The notes beneath the pieces were generated by a model, which saw only the letters and a program-made list of their open reading frames with translations, ran no database searches and had not been told where the DNA came from. Below, one piece after another: positions 18,614 to 22,857 of a DNA stretch of 36,602 nt. The stretch is from positions 1-36,602 of the forward strand of contig JABLXA010000023.1 of NCBI GenBank assembly GCA_013178415.1. Reading direction: 5' to 3'. The stretch's first letter is position 1. The number at the start of each line of letters is the position of its first letter. The DNA is from Bacillota bacterium (GTDB lineage: Bacteria; Bacillota; SHA-98; Ch115). A program made the translations under genes and the position numbers.

Positions 18614-19183
18614 TCACCTGAAAGGATGTGATACCTCGGATATTTCCAGGTTAATGAGGTACTGTTTGAGTTCCAACCCTCCTCCATATCCAGTGAGGGA
18701 TCCATCCTTACCCACCACCCGGTGGCAGGGCACGATAATGGGGACAGGGTTTGCGGCATTGGCGGCGCCCACGGCTCTAACCGCCCTTGGGCTGCCGATT
18801 TCGCTGGCGACCCGCGCATAGGAGGCGGTAGAGCCATATGGTATCTGCCTTACGTACTCCCAAACCCTGCGCTGAAAGGCGGTTCCCCTCAGATCAAGGG
18901 GCACTGAGAAAAGGGTGAGTTTATGGGACAGGTATGAACGGATTTCATACTCAGCACGTGAATTGTGATCCTGCGGGGCGCCTTGCAGTCTATGCTTCGG
19001 CTGTTGTATGATGTTCTTCGGTCCGAAGATCTTATATAACCATGTGAAAAAACTCTCCTGCGGTTCAGTCGGCAGCAGCAATCGAACGACCCCGGCATCG
19101 GTAGATGCCACAAAGAATACCCCAAGCGGAGTTTCGAATGCGGTATATATGGCTACATTTCGAGATTGCGACCCAGTATTCAT
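18614..19183 (-). CDS. ogt: methylated-DNA-protein cysteine methyltransferase
   Basis: This suicide repair protein transfers the methyl group from O6-methylguanine in DNA to its own cysteine. The C-terminal domain holds the active motif VPCHRVVGKDG with nucleophile Cys153, preceded by the helix-turn-helix with RVASEIGSPRAVRAVG. The N-terminal ribonuclease-H-like domain (about 10-90) is present but weakly conserved and contains extra residues around 45-75. The ATG at 19183 follows a GGGGG site by seven bases and gives 189 residues; the open frame continues 64 codons further upstream without family similarity. It converges with the fucosidase gene, 84 bases away, and is divergent from arsR. Confidence 0.92.
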   Translation of the reverse strand: MNTGSQSRNVAIYTAFETPLGVFFVASTDAGVVRLLLPTEPQESFFTWLYKIFGPKNIIQQPKHRLQGAPQDHNSRAEYEIRSYLSHKLTLFSVPLDLRGTAFQRRVWEYVRQIPYGSTASYARVASEIGSPRAVRAVGAANAANPVPIIVPCHRVVGKDGSLTGYGGGLELKQYLINLEISEVSHPFR

Positions 19184-19364
19184 ATAGATTCCCCCTCTCT
19201 GCCTTCCATTCCCACTATTCTCCATAGATTTTATTTTTACCTTCACCCAAAAGGATGATTTTTGGGGGTACGCGTGGTGACATGCTGACCGAGACCGAGT
19301 CATGACTACGAATGCTGCATTCAAATGTCGCCCCAAAATGTCGATGCCGCCGAGAGATGTTACA

Positions 19365-19407
19365 TTGACATTCATTCATATATCCTAATATAATGATTGA
19401 TGGATGT
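19365..19407 (+). promoter_or_regulatory. arsR promoter with imperfect dyad
   Basis: TTGACA (19365-19370) and TATAAT (19389-19394) are 18 bp apart, a near-perfect sigma-A promoter. An imperfect inverted repeat, ACATTCATTCATA (from 19368) against the reverse complement of TGATTGATGGATGT, brackets the -10 box. An ArsR-family dimer bound there would block transcription, so autorepression of arsR and the downstream sulfur-transfer gene is likely. Confidence 0.75.
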
Positions 19408-19419
19408 TTGGAGGTAGCC

Positions 19420-19719
19420 ATGATGGAAAATATACGCAGAGATTACGAAAGGGCACGGGAGGGCGCGGATCTACTAAAAGTCCTCGCGCACCCTGTCCGG
19501 CTGTGCATAGTAAGAGGCCTTCTCGCAACAGGCGAATGTAATGTAAAAAAGATGCAGGAATGTCTCGATTCCCCGCAATCCACTATTTCTCAACATCTAG
19601 GGAAACTACGTGCTGCAGGGATACTTGAAGGACGAAGGGCCGGGGTTGAAATATATTACCGGCTCATAAGCGAGGACGCAAGGAAGGTTGTAGAGGCCTT
19701 GTTTGACGGAGATCATTAA
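19420..19719 (+). CDS. ArsR-family transcriptional repressor, candidate persulfide or redox sensor
   Basis: This 99-residue winged-helix protein has LLKVLAHPVRLCIVRGLL in helix 1-2 and SPQSTISQHLGKLRAAGILEGRR as the recognition helix and wing. Cysteines are at 29, 40 and 48. The ArsR metal motif CxC is absent; C40 and C48, seven residues apart, lie just before the recognition helix and could sense thiols or a metal. Given that the next gene is a sulfur-trafficking fusion, persulfide sensing in the manner of SqrR/BigR is a reasonable guess, but the cysteine positions do not obviously match those proteins. The ATG at 19420, five bases after GGAGG, is the right start because an upstream in-frame ATG lies inside the promoter. 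Confidence 0.88.
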   Translation: MMENIRRDYERAREGADLLKVLAHPVRLCIVRGLLATGECNVKKMQECLDSPQSTISQHLGKLRAAGILEGRRAGVEIYYRLISEDARKVVEALFDGDH

Positions 19720-19747
19720 GTATAAAGGCAAGTATAAAAAAGGGCTG

Positions 19748-22399
19748 GTGAATTTCGTGGCTAGAAAAGTTCTTATAGTTGGTGGGGTCGCAGGTGGGGC
19801 GAGCGCTGCAGCTCGGCTGCGAAGACTCGATGAACAAGCGGAGATCATCATATTTGAACGAGGGGAGTATATTTCATACGCTAACTGCGGTCTTCCATAT
19901 TACATTGGCGGGATCATCAAGGAGCGCAAGAACCTCCTCGTGCAGACGCCCGAGACTATGAAGGCCCGATTCAACATTGACATAAGGACTCAAAATGAGG
20001 TAGTAAAGATCGATAGGGGGAAAAAGCAGGTCCTGGTCAGGGATCTCAAATCTGGGAAAGAGTATTCTGAGACTTATGACACGCTCATATTATCGCCAGG
20101 GGCCAGGCCAATCAGACCCAAATTTCCGGGCATCGAACTCCCTAACATTTTCACCCTCAGGGATATACCAGATACGGACCACCTCAAGGAATTCATAGAT
20201 CTCAGAAGACCACAAGCCGCTGTAGTCGTGGGGGGCGGTTTCATAGGCCTTGAGATGGCCGAGGGCATTCACGCGAGAGGAGTAGCTGTATCGATAGTTG
20301 AGATGGCGCCCCAGGTGATGGATCCGCTCGATCCGGAGATGGCTGCCATTGTTCACAATCACCTCCGAGAAAAGGGGGTGAACCTATTCCTGGGAGATGG
20401 CGTGGAAGGCTTCTATCAGGATGATCGCAGCACAAAACCGGCTGATAGGGCTGGGGCCAATGGAGTTCCAGGCGCTGCGGATGCCGACGCCGGTATCGCT
20501 CATAAGACAATGGTCAGACTTTGCAGCGGACGGCAGATCGAGGCTGATATGGTGCTCCTGGCCATCGGAGTCAGGCCGGATATCTCGCTGGCGAAAGATG
20601 CGGGCCTTTCCATAGGGGAACGCGGTGGCATCGTGGTAAATGAGTATCTCCAGACCTCCGATCCGGATATTTATGCCATAGGAGACGCGATAGAAGTCAT
20701 TGACTTCGTGACTGGAAGAAGGATGCCGGTCCCCCTGGCAGGTCCGGCCAACAAACAGGGACGTATTGCGGCTGACAATATTTGTGGGAGAAGACAAAAA
20801 TACTCCGGAACGCAGGGAACGGCTATAGTCAAGGTCTTCGATCTCACTGTGGCGACAACGGGCAGCAATGAAAAAACCTTGAGAAAGCTGAACCAGCCTT
20901 GTGCAAGCATCATTATTCACCCTGCTTCACACGCCAGCTACTACCCTGGCAGCATTCCCATGTCACTGAAGGTGGTCTTCTCACCTGACGGCAAGCTCCT
21001 CGGGGCGCAGGCGGTAGGGCGTGAAGGTGTAGACAAGAGGATCGACGTGCTGGCCACCGCGATACGCTTTGGCAAGAGCGTCTTCGACCTCCAGGAGCTT
21101 GAACTTGCCTATGCGCCACCTTATTCCTCTGCAAAAGACCCCGTAAACATGGCGGGATATGTTGCGGGCAATGTGGTGAATGGGGATGTAGAGGTTGCAA
21201 GCTGGGATGCGATCGCGTCAATAGATAGGGAAAAAACCGTTCTCCTCGATGTGAGGGAGCCTTTCGAATGCCAGATGGGGGTCATCGAGGGGTCCATCAA
21301 CATACCACTTGGGCAACTCCGTGGGAGATTGCAGGAAATCCCCAGAGGAAAGGATATCGTCGTATATTGTCAGGTGGGGCTTAGAGCCTATATCGCATGC
21401 AGGATCCTCATGCAGCATGGATTCGAAAATGTGAAGAATCTAAGTGGCGGGTGGAGAACATATAGCGCAGTAATGAAGGATCAGAAAGCGCGCAAGGAGC
21501 AGTGGGCAAATAGAAAGCTTTCGTGTGACGACGCCTATGAAAAGGCGGGCGATAGAGGCTCCGGTAAAACAGAGGATGATTCAGACAGAACGGGTGATGG
21601 TCTCTATAGCGCGAATGGCGGGGCGGACGCGTCCGGGCGCGGCGATGGCGGCATTCCACAATCTGGTAAGATAGTCACAATTGATGCCTGCGGGCTTGCA
21701 TGTCCCGGTCCCATCATGCAGACATATACAGCCATGAAGGAGCTTTCGAACGGGGATATACTCGAGGTTCACGCTACTGACCCGGGATTCTTGAATGACA
21801 TAGATGCCTGGTGCAAACAGACAGGAAACAGACTCATAGCCACCAGCGAGAACCCAAGAGGGTTTGTGGTCCGCATACAGAAGGGGCATGGGGATGCCAG
21901 GCCGGGGGCGGAGATACCTGCGGCAGAGAAGAATGATAAGACCATCATCGTTTTCAGCGGTGATCTGGATAAGGCTATCGCATCTTTCGTCATCGCGAAT
22001 GGCGCTGCCGCTATGGGGCGGAAGGTGACGATGTTCTTTACCTTCTGGGGCCTCAACATTCTGCGGAAAGAGAAAGGGGTGCCTGTGGCCAAGGGATTCA
22101 TGGACAGGATGTTCGGTCTCATGATGCCGCGGGGCAGCAAGCGCCTCGGGTTGTCGAAGATGAACATGTTGGGCATAGGACCTAAGCTCATACGGGACAC
22201 AATGGAAAGAAAGAACATAGCCTCCCTTGAAGAGTTGATGGCCCAGGCCAGGCGGGCGGGTGTAAGGCTTATAGCTTGCCAGATGACTATGGACGTTATG
22301 GGCATTAAGAAGGAAGAACTCATCGATGGCGTTGAAATTGGGGGAGTGGCGACATATCTGAATGCGGCAGAGAATTCTAATCTGAATCTCTTTATATAG
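19748..22399 (+). CDS. CoA-disulfide reductase/persulfide reductase fused to rhodanese, TusA and DsrE domains
   Basis: The 883-residue protein has four domains. Residues 1-455 are a FAD/NAD(P)H disulfide reductase of the CoA-disulfide reductase class, with VGGVAGGASAAAR for FAD and the redox cysteine in SYANCGLPYYIGG (about Cys47). Residues 480-575 are a rhodanese with LLDVREPFE and the active cysteine in VVYCQVGLR (about 539). A disordered linker rich in Gly, Asp and Lys follows. Residues 640-712 are TusA with CGLACPGP (Cys about 651). Residues 729-883 are a DsrE/DsrF-like domain with its cysteine in LIACQMTMDVMG (about 843). All four sulfur-carrying cysteines are present. The likely job is reducing or relaying persulfide sulfur in the cytoplasm. 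A GTG at 19748 or 19757 starts it, just after the arsR stop. Residues about 225-245 form an unusual Ala/Gly/Asp-rich loop. Confidence 0.93.
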   Translation: MNFVARKVLIVGGVAGGASAAARLRRLDEQAEIIIFERGEYISYANCGLPYYIGGIIKERKNLLVQTPETMKARFNIDIRTQNEVVKIDRGKKQVLVRDLKSGKEYSETYDTLILSPGARPIRPKFPGIELPNIFTLRDIPDTDHLKEFIDLRRPQAAVVVGGGFIGLEMAEGIHARGVAVSIVEMAPQVMDPLDPEMAAIVHNHLREKGVNLFLGDGVEGFYQDDRSTKPADRAGANGVPGAADADAGIAHKTMVRLCSGRQIEADMVLLAIGVRPDISLAKDAGLSIGERGGIVVNEYLQTSDPDIYAIGDAIEVIDFVTGRRMPVPLAGPANKQGRIAADNICGRRQKYSGTQGTAIVKVFDLTVATTGSNEKTLRKLNQPCASIIIHPASHASYYPGSIPMSLKVVFSPDGKLLGAQAVGREGVDKRIDVLATAIRFGKSVFDLQELELAYAPPYSSAKDPVNMAGYVAGNVVNGDVEVASWDAIASIDREKTVLLDVREPFECQMGVIEGSINIPLGQLRGRLQEIPRGKDIVVYCQVGLRAYIACRILMQHGFENVKNLSGGWRTYSAVMKDQKARKEQWANRKLSCDDAYEKAGDRGSGKTEDDSDRTGDGLYSANGGADASGRGDGGIPQSGKIVTIDACGLACPGPIMQTYTAMKELSNGDILEVHATDPGFLNDIDAWCKQTGNRLIATSENPRGFVVRIQKGHGDARPGAEIPAAEKNDKTIIVFSGDLDKAIASFVIANGAAAMGRKVTMFFTFWGLNILRKEKGVPVAKGFMDRMFGLMMPRGSKRLGLSKMNMLGIGPKLIRDTMERKNIASLEELMAQARRAGVRLIACQMTMDVMGIKKEELIDGVEIGGVATYLNAAENSNLNLFI

Positions 22400-22407
22400 A
22401 CAATAGA

Positions 22408-22456
22408 GGATCATACCCGGGGAGGACTGGAGGGGCCCCGTCCCCGGGTATGATCC
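22408..22456. terminator. 16-bp perfect hairpin between convergent genes
   Basis: The arms 22408-22423 and 22441-22456 are exact reverse complements (GGATCATACCCGGGGA), with a 17-base loop that itself contains GGGGCCCC. It starts nine bases after the sulfur-transfer gene stop and lies 66 bases from the end of the convergent rubredoxin-domain gene. No clear U tract follows on either strand, so a bidirectional terminator or mRNA 3'-end stabiliser is the likely role. Confidence 0.7.
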
Positions 22457-22521: not shown

Positions 22522-22857
22522 TTAGCCCCACTTGCCCTTATTCATGTGACCTGCCAGCTCTGCCTTGACCATCTGCTGGATGATTTGGGCCTGAGCTTTT
22601 GCATATTCAAATACCTTGACGCATGGAGGATCAAGATTGTCCTTGATGCCTGCCTCAGCTGTCTCAAGCACTCGCTGGAGGTGGGTGAAAAGCTCCATGT
22701 GGAGCTGATTAGTCTTTCGTGATTTGTCTATAAGTGCAGCTGCATCCTGAGGCACTTCCGCGAACTTTTCCTTCGACGCGCCACATTTTGGACAGGACTC
22801 CGGTGCCTCTTCTCCATCATAAACAAACCCACATACAGAACAACGCCATTTCTTCAT
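22522..22857 (-). CDS. rubredoxin-like domain protein
   Basis: The 111-residue protein starts with a rubredoxin-type metal knuckle pair, CSVCGFVYDG and CPKCGASKEKF, which bind one iron (or zinc) through four cysteines. It continues as a helical region (about 38-105) that is rich in Lys, Gln and Leu. This resembles the rubredoxin end of rubrerythrin joined to a short helical domain, but the di-iron ligands of rubrerythrin are absent. Electron transfer in oxidative-stress defence of anaerobes is the probable role. The ATG at 22857 follows GGAGG by nine bases. Its own promoter is at 22936-22964. It is convergent with the sulfur-transfer gene. Confidence 0.85.
   Translation of the reverse strand: MKKWRCSVCGFVYDGEEAPESCPKCGASKEKFAEVPQDAAALIDKSRKTNQLHMELFTHLQRVLETAEAGIKDNLDPPCVKVFEYAKAQAQIIQQMVKAELAGHMNKGKWG

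Follow-up and report, generated by a model that had tools for sequence, protein, structure and literature searches.

What does an ArsR-family repressor respond to when its gene stands directly before a sulfur-handling enzyme, and how many genes does it control? The question is raised by a 36,602-nt stretch of a Bacillota bacterium (contig JABLXA010000023.1, assembly GCA_013178415.1; hereafter the window), in which an ArsR gene is followed by the gene for a fusion of a coenzyme A (CoA) disulfide/persulfide reductase (CoADR), a rhodanese domain (RHD), a TusA domain and a DsrE2-type domain. We read this pair as an autoregulated operon for the disposal of reactive sulfur, in which a thiol-based, sulfane-sulfur-responsive repressor would control a CoA-persulfide-disposal enzyme, and we put the probability of this sequence-based reading at roughly 0.6. 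The computations directly yield the gene order, the domains, the conserved cysteines, a regulator family that stands apart and an operator whose place follows the operon's first gene. From these we infer repression, a switch through Cys29 and Cys48, a persulfide signal and the direction in which sulfur flows.

In the proposed mechanism, at low sulfane sulfur an ArsR dimer would sit on a palindrome over the -10 box and block both its own gene and the co-transcribed fusion. As persulfides or polysulfides rise, Cys29 in helix α2 and Cys48 at the end of helix α3 would be modified or bridged, the modified dimer would leave the DNA and the operon would be expressed. Sulfane sulfur would next be taken up by the DsrE2 and TusA domains, together with free partners, and handed on to CoA and the rhodanese domain; the reduction of CoA-persulfide to CoASH and H2S would fall to the CoADR domain, which depends on FAD and NADH. 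The two genes form a unit on the + strand (ArsR 19420-19719, a 37-nt gap, fusion 19757-22399), and the promoter and regulator comprise the following features.

19365..19370, + strand: -35 element TTGACA, exact match
19376..19403, + strand: predicted ArsR operator, 28 bp, overlapping the -10 box; palindromic motif from 117 family upstreams
19382-19397, + strand: 16-bp operator core ATCCTAATATAATGAT, the sole exact consensus match in the own genome
19389..19394, + strand: -10 element TATAAT, exact match, with an 18-nt spacer to the -35 element
19410..19414, + strand: Shine-Dalgarno GGAGG of the ArsR gene, read from the sequence
19420..19719, + strand: ArsR-family repressor gene, 99 aa from ATG 19420 (Pfam, NCBIfam, AlphaFold2 (AF2) model, conservation)
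19504-19506, + strand: Cys29 codon of ArsR, helix α2
19537-19539, + strand: Cys40 codon of ArsR
19561-19563, + strand: Cys48 codon of ArsR, end of helix α3

The regulator family and its cysteines

A profile built from 27 ArsRs of CoADR-RHD loci and searched against 398 Bacillota genomes split its matches sharply, with 99 loci at 99-150 bits and the next match at 78 bits. This profile leaves out the ArsRs of L051 (distant, lacking Cys29) and L077 (broken frame), both of which are in the 29-row conservation count. The 78-bit match, L193, is a family member in truncated form, with CoADR-RHD, TusA and DsrE behind it, and it is included in the 31 lower-scoring ArsRs that served as controls. A CoADR gene lies within 250 bp on the same strand in 62 of the 99 members, the window's included, compared with 1 of 31 controls, namely L193. 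Since near-copies inflate these family counts, we also clustered the members at 60% identity, which gave 32 clusters, 22 of them with linked members. The initial annotation had called the coupling to this ArsR variant little described; the coupling of this regulator to CoADR is no local oddity, being common and not peculiar to the window. At loci L094-L123 the sequence extends no more than about 1.5 kb in either direction, and domains behind CoADR are not visible there.

The window ArsR matches PF12840 (HTH_20) and PF01022 (HTH_5), and its AF2 model (pLDDT 94.2) has five helices plus a wing. Model and Foldseek agree on the ArsR winged-helix fold α1-α5, the best Foldseek matches being SqrR (6o8o, TM 0.87), PagR, BigR and HlyU. 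In the model, helix α2 (25-37) contains Cys29 and a short strand (39-41) contains Cys40; Cys48 comes at the end of helix α3 (42-49), with the recognition helix (53-65) following directly.

Conservation separates these cysteines. Cys29 occurs in 96 of the 99 family members, Cys48 in 88, both together in 86 and Cys40 in 81, while among the 31 controls the corresponding numbers are 0, 1, 0 and 11. All three are present in 69 members. The Cys29-Cys48 pair is found in 59 of 62 CoADR-linked and 27 of 37 unlinked members (Fisher p 0.004), and in 21 of the 22 linked clusters a linked member carries it; Cys40 follows no such trend (48 of 62 linked, 33 of 37 unlinked). The initial annotation had singled out Cys40 and Cys48 near the recognition helix, and its numbering is right from ATG 19420, but it overlooked Cys29, and the frequency of Cys40 in family and controls rules out Cys40/Cys48 as the conserved pair. 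Cys29 and Cys48 are, on the sequence comparison, more likely to be the sensing pair. An ArsR family with an α2/α3 cysteine pair appears undescribed, as we did not find one in the open-access literature that we searched.

Five ArsRs (L156, L161, L168, L170 and L189) have His in place of Cys48 and no CoADR gene nearby; they are perhaps a metal-sensing or signal-shifted side branch.

The operator

To define the operator we fitted palindromes to 200-nt upstreams of family ArsR genes, of which 117 of 123 were kept after removal of near-copies; fusion upstreams were not part of the fit. A 16-bp palindromic consensus, ATCnTAATATTAnGAT, reached a log-likelihood of 373.9 against 36.4 for shuffled sequences. 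Begun from this site, a 28-bp model (ta.TATATt.tAATATTa.aATATA.ta) reached 693.5 against 51.8, and palindromic fits of width 18-24 were drawn to other repeats, their scores lying below that of width 16. By the 28-bp model, 88 of the 117 family upstreams lie above the 99% shuffle level. The window site scores 17.6, compared with 10.6 at that level, and sits over the TATAAT box.

The earlier idea of a compact regulator-enzyme module is supported, with the ArsR gene 37 nt before the fusion, and an operator on the -10 box has the geometry expected for a repressor. A promoter bracketed by a dyad had also been proposed: the promoter stands, with exact -35 and -10 elements, but the dyad is imperfect and lies on the -10 box at 19382-19397 instead of bracketing the promoter. 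A search of 19340-19430 for inverted repeats of at least 8 bases found none.

In the own genome of 3.57 Mb the window site is the single exact match to the consensus ATYNTAATATWANRAT, and matches with up to two mismatches are at background (58/56 versus 55/45 for controls). A wide regulon in the own genome is thereby ruled out, as is operator control of a second CoADR-rhodanese gene, L002, which has no site upstream. With a single exact site and none at L002, a single-target regulator is the simplest reading.

We then compared the operator with gene order across loci, scoring only ArsR upstreams of at least 120 nt, fusion upstreams of at least 80 nt and fusions with a recognisable start motif. 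Where the ArsR gene lies downstream of the fusion, a site precedes the fusion in 5 of 5 rows, about 3 of them independent (L126, L131 and L134 are one genus and one site). Where ArsR lies upstream, an extra site precedes the fusion in 21 of 35 cases with a gap of at least 60 nt and in 0 of 38 with a shorter gap. Fusions without a nearby family ArsR have a site in 3 of 46 cases, and for one of these three, L033 (Clostridium bowmanii DSM 14206), a family ArsR stands on another contig (L072). The predicted operator thus overlies the -10 box, where a repressor would bind, and tracks the operon's first gene, which supports autorepression. It is not specific to the family, a notion ruled out by 12 of the 31 control ArsRs that score too; these point to a general ArsR-type palindrome, which argues for autorepression and carries no information on the signal.

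The signal

We favour sulfane sulfur as the signal because of the company that the regulator keeps. Its constant partner has two-domain relatives that clear CoA-persulfide, as reported for E. faecalis CoAPR (PMC9405070), and the extra domains of the fusion are sulfur carriers. Fusions without the family ArsR can instead have CsoR-superfamily or MarR regulators. In addition, a sample of 20 flanking genes, taken from 19 loci with ArsR and CoADR, contained no member of an arsenic-gene family and, as its one iron-related gene, FeoA; this sample includes L127, whose CoADR gene is 747 bp away and was counted as unlinked.

The same neighbours make it improbable that the ArsR senses metals or metalloids through Cys29, Cys40 and Cys48, with a fusion that helps in arsenic or heavy-metal stress: the constant partner is a sulfur enzyme, the flanking genes are as just described, and Cys40 is missing in 14 of the 62 linked members. 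In a sequence similarity network (SSN) of ArsR proteins, a CxC motif in α3 is reported as the hallmark of the cluster 1 metal sensors (PMC10509353), and helix α3 of the window protein has one cysteine, Cys48, and no CxC. Metal sensing would nevertheless fit the score of the window ArsR with the NCBIfam model HTH_metalloreg (80.7 bits, cut-off 55), the 69 members with all three cysteines, and the CoADR-rhodanese genes reported beside arsR/acr3/arsC genes in Fusibacter and relatives (PMC5525254).

Persulfide-sensing ArsRs resemble the window protein in fold and in their proposed dithiol logic. The quoted operator of SqrR/BigR/HlyU, ATTC-N8-GAAT (PMC9774250), is similar in size to the window operator, and these proteins form SSN cluster 4, defined by an α2-α5 cysteine pair (PMC10509353). 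The pair in SqrR is Cys41 and Cys107, in α2 and α5, whereas that of the window ArsR is in α2 and α3. The window protein has no cysteine after residue 48 and hence no α5 partner, and in the alignment SqrR Cys41 falls on residue 32 or 33 (R, G) and misses Cys29. With the NCBIfam BigR model it scores 80.1 bits, below the cut-off of 155.

A disulfide between Cys29 and Cys48 could also make the ArsR a general sensor of thiol oxidation or peroxide, with the fusion keeping CoA reduced. RexT is a precedent, an ArsR reported to sense H2O2 through a disulfide between proximal α3 cysteines, Cys40 and Cys41 (PMC8960804), and genes of RexT-type cluster 6 are reported near NADH oxidoreductases (PMC10509353). 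Loss of the Bacteroides fusion, in addition, is reported to raise diamide sensitivity (PMC6158253). RexT and the window ArsR are both cysteine-based with a cysteine in α3, but the RexT pair is adjacent, whereas sequence and model of the window ArsR contain no adjacent pair in α3, its conserved pair being split between two helices with 19 residues from one cysteine to the other. Sulfane sulfur, more than plain disulfides, is what the TusA and DsrE domains suggest as the substrate handled, and the separate genes equivalent to them suggest the same. We consider a general sensor of thiol oxidation or peroxide unlikely.

Several observations weigh against a sulfane-sulfur switch on this operator. 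Disulfide stress would account for the diamide phenotype seen with the Bacteroides fusion no less well than persulfide (PMC6158253). In the family, 13 of 99 members lack one or both of Cys29 and Cys48 (five with His48), and 37 of 99, a few of them at contig ends, have no CoADR gene within 250 bp; the neighbours of these unlinked ArsRs are diverse by Pfam, with no constant partner (20 genes, 17 of the 37 loci). PagR of Bacillus anthracis (2zkz), which among PDB sequences comes closest to the family profile (2.8e-25), lacks cysteine at both conserved positions. That Cys29 and Cys48 are close enough for bridging is a conjecture from the order of helices in the model. As for the operator, 29 of the 117 family upstreams have no site, the window dyad pairs 6 of 8 half-site positions by our own reading and was recognised through comparison only, and the matrix scores, besides the 12 control ArsR upstreams, at 10 of 436 other genes. 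Two of these ten hits look like the family site, L101 (where an MGMT frame was started too early) and L143.

Comparable enzymes elsewhere answer to other regulators. In B. fragilis, BF638R_0572 has the same four domains in the same order as the window fusion, and the MarR protein BmoR is reported to bind its promoter and repress it, expression rising 50-fold in a bmoR mutant (PMC6158253). The two systems are alike in domains, domain order and an adjoining self-repressing regulator, and differ in that the Bacteroides regulator is a MarR protein with another operator. CstR regulates CoAPR in E. faecalis (PMC9405070), and a Caldicellulosiruptor operon with TusA and CoA-disulfide reductase is reported under Rex (PMC8579813), which makes Rex another regulator of such genes.

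Among our loci, other fusions carry a CsoR-superfamily gene (L017, L020 and L022) or a divergent MarR gene (L029) in place of the family ArsR. The three CsoR-superfamily proteins share a conserved cysteine pair, and those of L017 and L022 have a His four residues before the second Cys, a copper-type CsoR motif, so that a ligand other than sulfane sulfur is possible for these two. CstR, too, belongs to the CsoR family. A glutaredoxin gene directly precedes two of the CsoR-linked four-domain fusions (L020 3687-3932, L022 3639-3914).

We give an even chance to the broader proposal that these 32 clusters are an undescribed ArsR lineage with its own α2/α3 thiol switch, dedicated to regulating CoA-persulfide disposal in anaerobic Bacillota and taking the place that a MarR (BmoR) or a CsoR-superfamily repressor has in other lineages; several unrelated regulator families would thus have been wired to one and the same enzyme. 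If true, sulfur or redox sensing in the ArsR fold would gain another arrangement of cysteines, one that comes with a predicted operator and a simple target, and what makes a dithiol ArsR select persulfide over peroxide or metal would become testable outside the SqrR/BigR group. It would also name a likely reactive-sulfur switch for many anaerobic Bacillota, in which sulfide and persulfide can reach high levels and regulators are little studied.

The fusion enzyme and its sulfur flow

The fusion gene starts at a GTG picked by eye from its Shine-Dalgarno and encodes the following parts.

19757..22399, + strand: CoA-disulfide/persulfide reductase - rhodanese - TusA - DsrE2 fusion, 880 aa
19766..21133, + strand: CoADR (FAD/NAD) part, residues 4-459 (PF07992, PF00070, PF02852)
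19886-19888, + strand: Cys44 codon, CoADR, motif SYANC
21215..21466, + strand: rhodanese domain, residues 487-570 (PF00581)
21368-21370, + strand: Cys538 codon, rhodanese, motif CQVGLR
21677..21883, + strand: TusA domain, residues 641-709 (PF01206)
21701-21703, + strand: Cys649 codon, TusA, motif CGLACPGP
21932..22393, + strand: DsrE2-type domain, residues 726-879 (PF13686)
22277-22279, + strand: Cys841 codon, DsrE2, motif IACQMTMD

Four domains in one polypeptide, each with its own sulfur-carrying cysteine, had been read from the sequence at the outset, and the comparison agrees. The Pfam order is Pyr_redox_2 (4-318), dimerisation (356-459), Rhodanese (487-570), TusA (641-709) and DrsE_2 (726-879), and among 44 aligned four-domain fusions Cys538 and Cys649 are conserved in every row, Cys44 and Cys841 in 43 rows each. 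The chain thus contains a CoADR domain with its active cysteine, a following rhodanese with its cysteine, and then TusA and PF13686, in the order of BF638R_0572. Its best PDB matches are two-domain CoADR-RHD proteins: 3icr (8.5e-195), 3nta and 8a56. The last is E. faecalis CoAPR; the first two are B. anthracis CoADR-RHD and a Shewanella-type enzyme. E. faecalis CoAPR, B. anthracis CoADR-RHD and Shewanella Npsr share the CoADR and rhodanese halves with the window fusion, but have two domains, without TusA or DsrE2. With the NCBIfam equivalog for CoA-disulfide reductase, TIGR03385, the fusion scores 516.9 bits, below the cut-off of 578.8, and is related only.

Among 81 CoADR-RHD loci (80 from a scan of genome contigs plus the own-genome paralog), 43 are four-domain fusions, 23 of which have an adjacent ArsR gene, one of these (L051) a distant ArsR. 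The type had been expected in other Firmicutes, and it is found mainly in Bacillota; single loci in Planctomycetota, Kiritimatiellota and Verrucomicrobiota, and the fusion reported from Bacteroides (PMC6158253), extend that range. The four-domain fusion type is therefore already published and not new. The distant upstream ArsR of L051 (3593-3910), a Kiritimatiellales four-domain fusion, matches with E 4e-10 and has neither Cys29 nor Cys48; here the same enzyme may have acquired an ArsR independently.

In five linked loci CoADR-RHD, TusA and DsrE are encoded by separate genes after that for ArsR and follow one another as their domains do in the fusion. These split operons, headed by an ArsR of the same family, support a functional coupling of the four parts, and they show that a single polypeptide is not required. 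Four kept cysteines, and parts that recur as neighbours when unfused, support a common pathway; the relay first proposed, in which sulfur would pass all four sites without leaving the protein, goes beyond this.

TusA and DsrE may instead serve outside partners, the fusion serving only co-localisation and co-expression, which would be compatible with any sensor. The separate genes in five loci would fit this, as would the rhodanese-TusA linker, whose length varies from 21 to 61 residues across the 44 aligned fusions. In E. faecalis CoAPR, moreover, CoADR Cys42 is reported to lie at least 26.6 Å from rhodanese Cys508' of the other protomer (PMC9405070), so that direct hand-over would need movement, as of swinging domains, or CoA as a carrier. 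Yet the four-domain order is kept in 43 of the 81 loci, and long flexible linkers could equally serve a swinging-domain relay. We hold the absence of an internal relay to be possible, if somewhat doubtful.

The paralog L002 (G000:C12:6817-8586) is 77% identical to the first 582 residues of the fusion. It lacks TusA, DsrE, ArsR and operator, and the tree places it with L024, beside the window fusion and L014.

Upstream of ArsR, a divergent O6-methylguanine-DNA methyltransferase gene (18614-19375, - strand) would reach the promoter region if read from its first ATG, but its likely start is further downstream. On the other side, a convergent gene (22522-22857, - strand) encodes a small protein whose N-terminal domain is rubredoxin-like (RUBY_RBDX) and which has no full rubrerythrin match. 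Directly behind the fusion, at 22408-22456, lies a perfect 15-bp inverted repeat (GGATCATACCCGGGG ... CCCCGGGTATGATCC) with a 19-nt loop and without a T-run; it is single-copy in the own genome and possibly a bidirectional terminator between the convergent genes.

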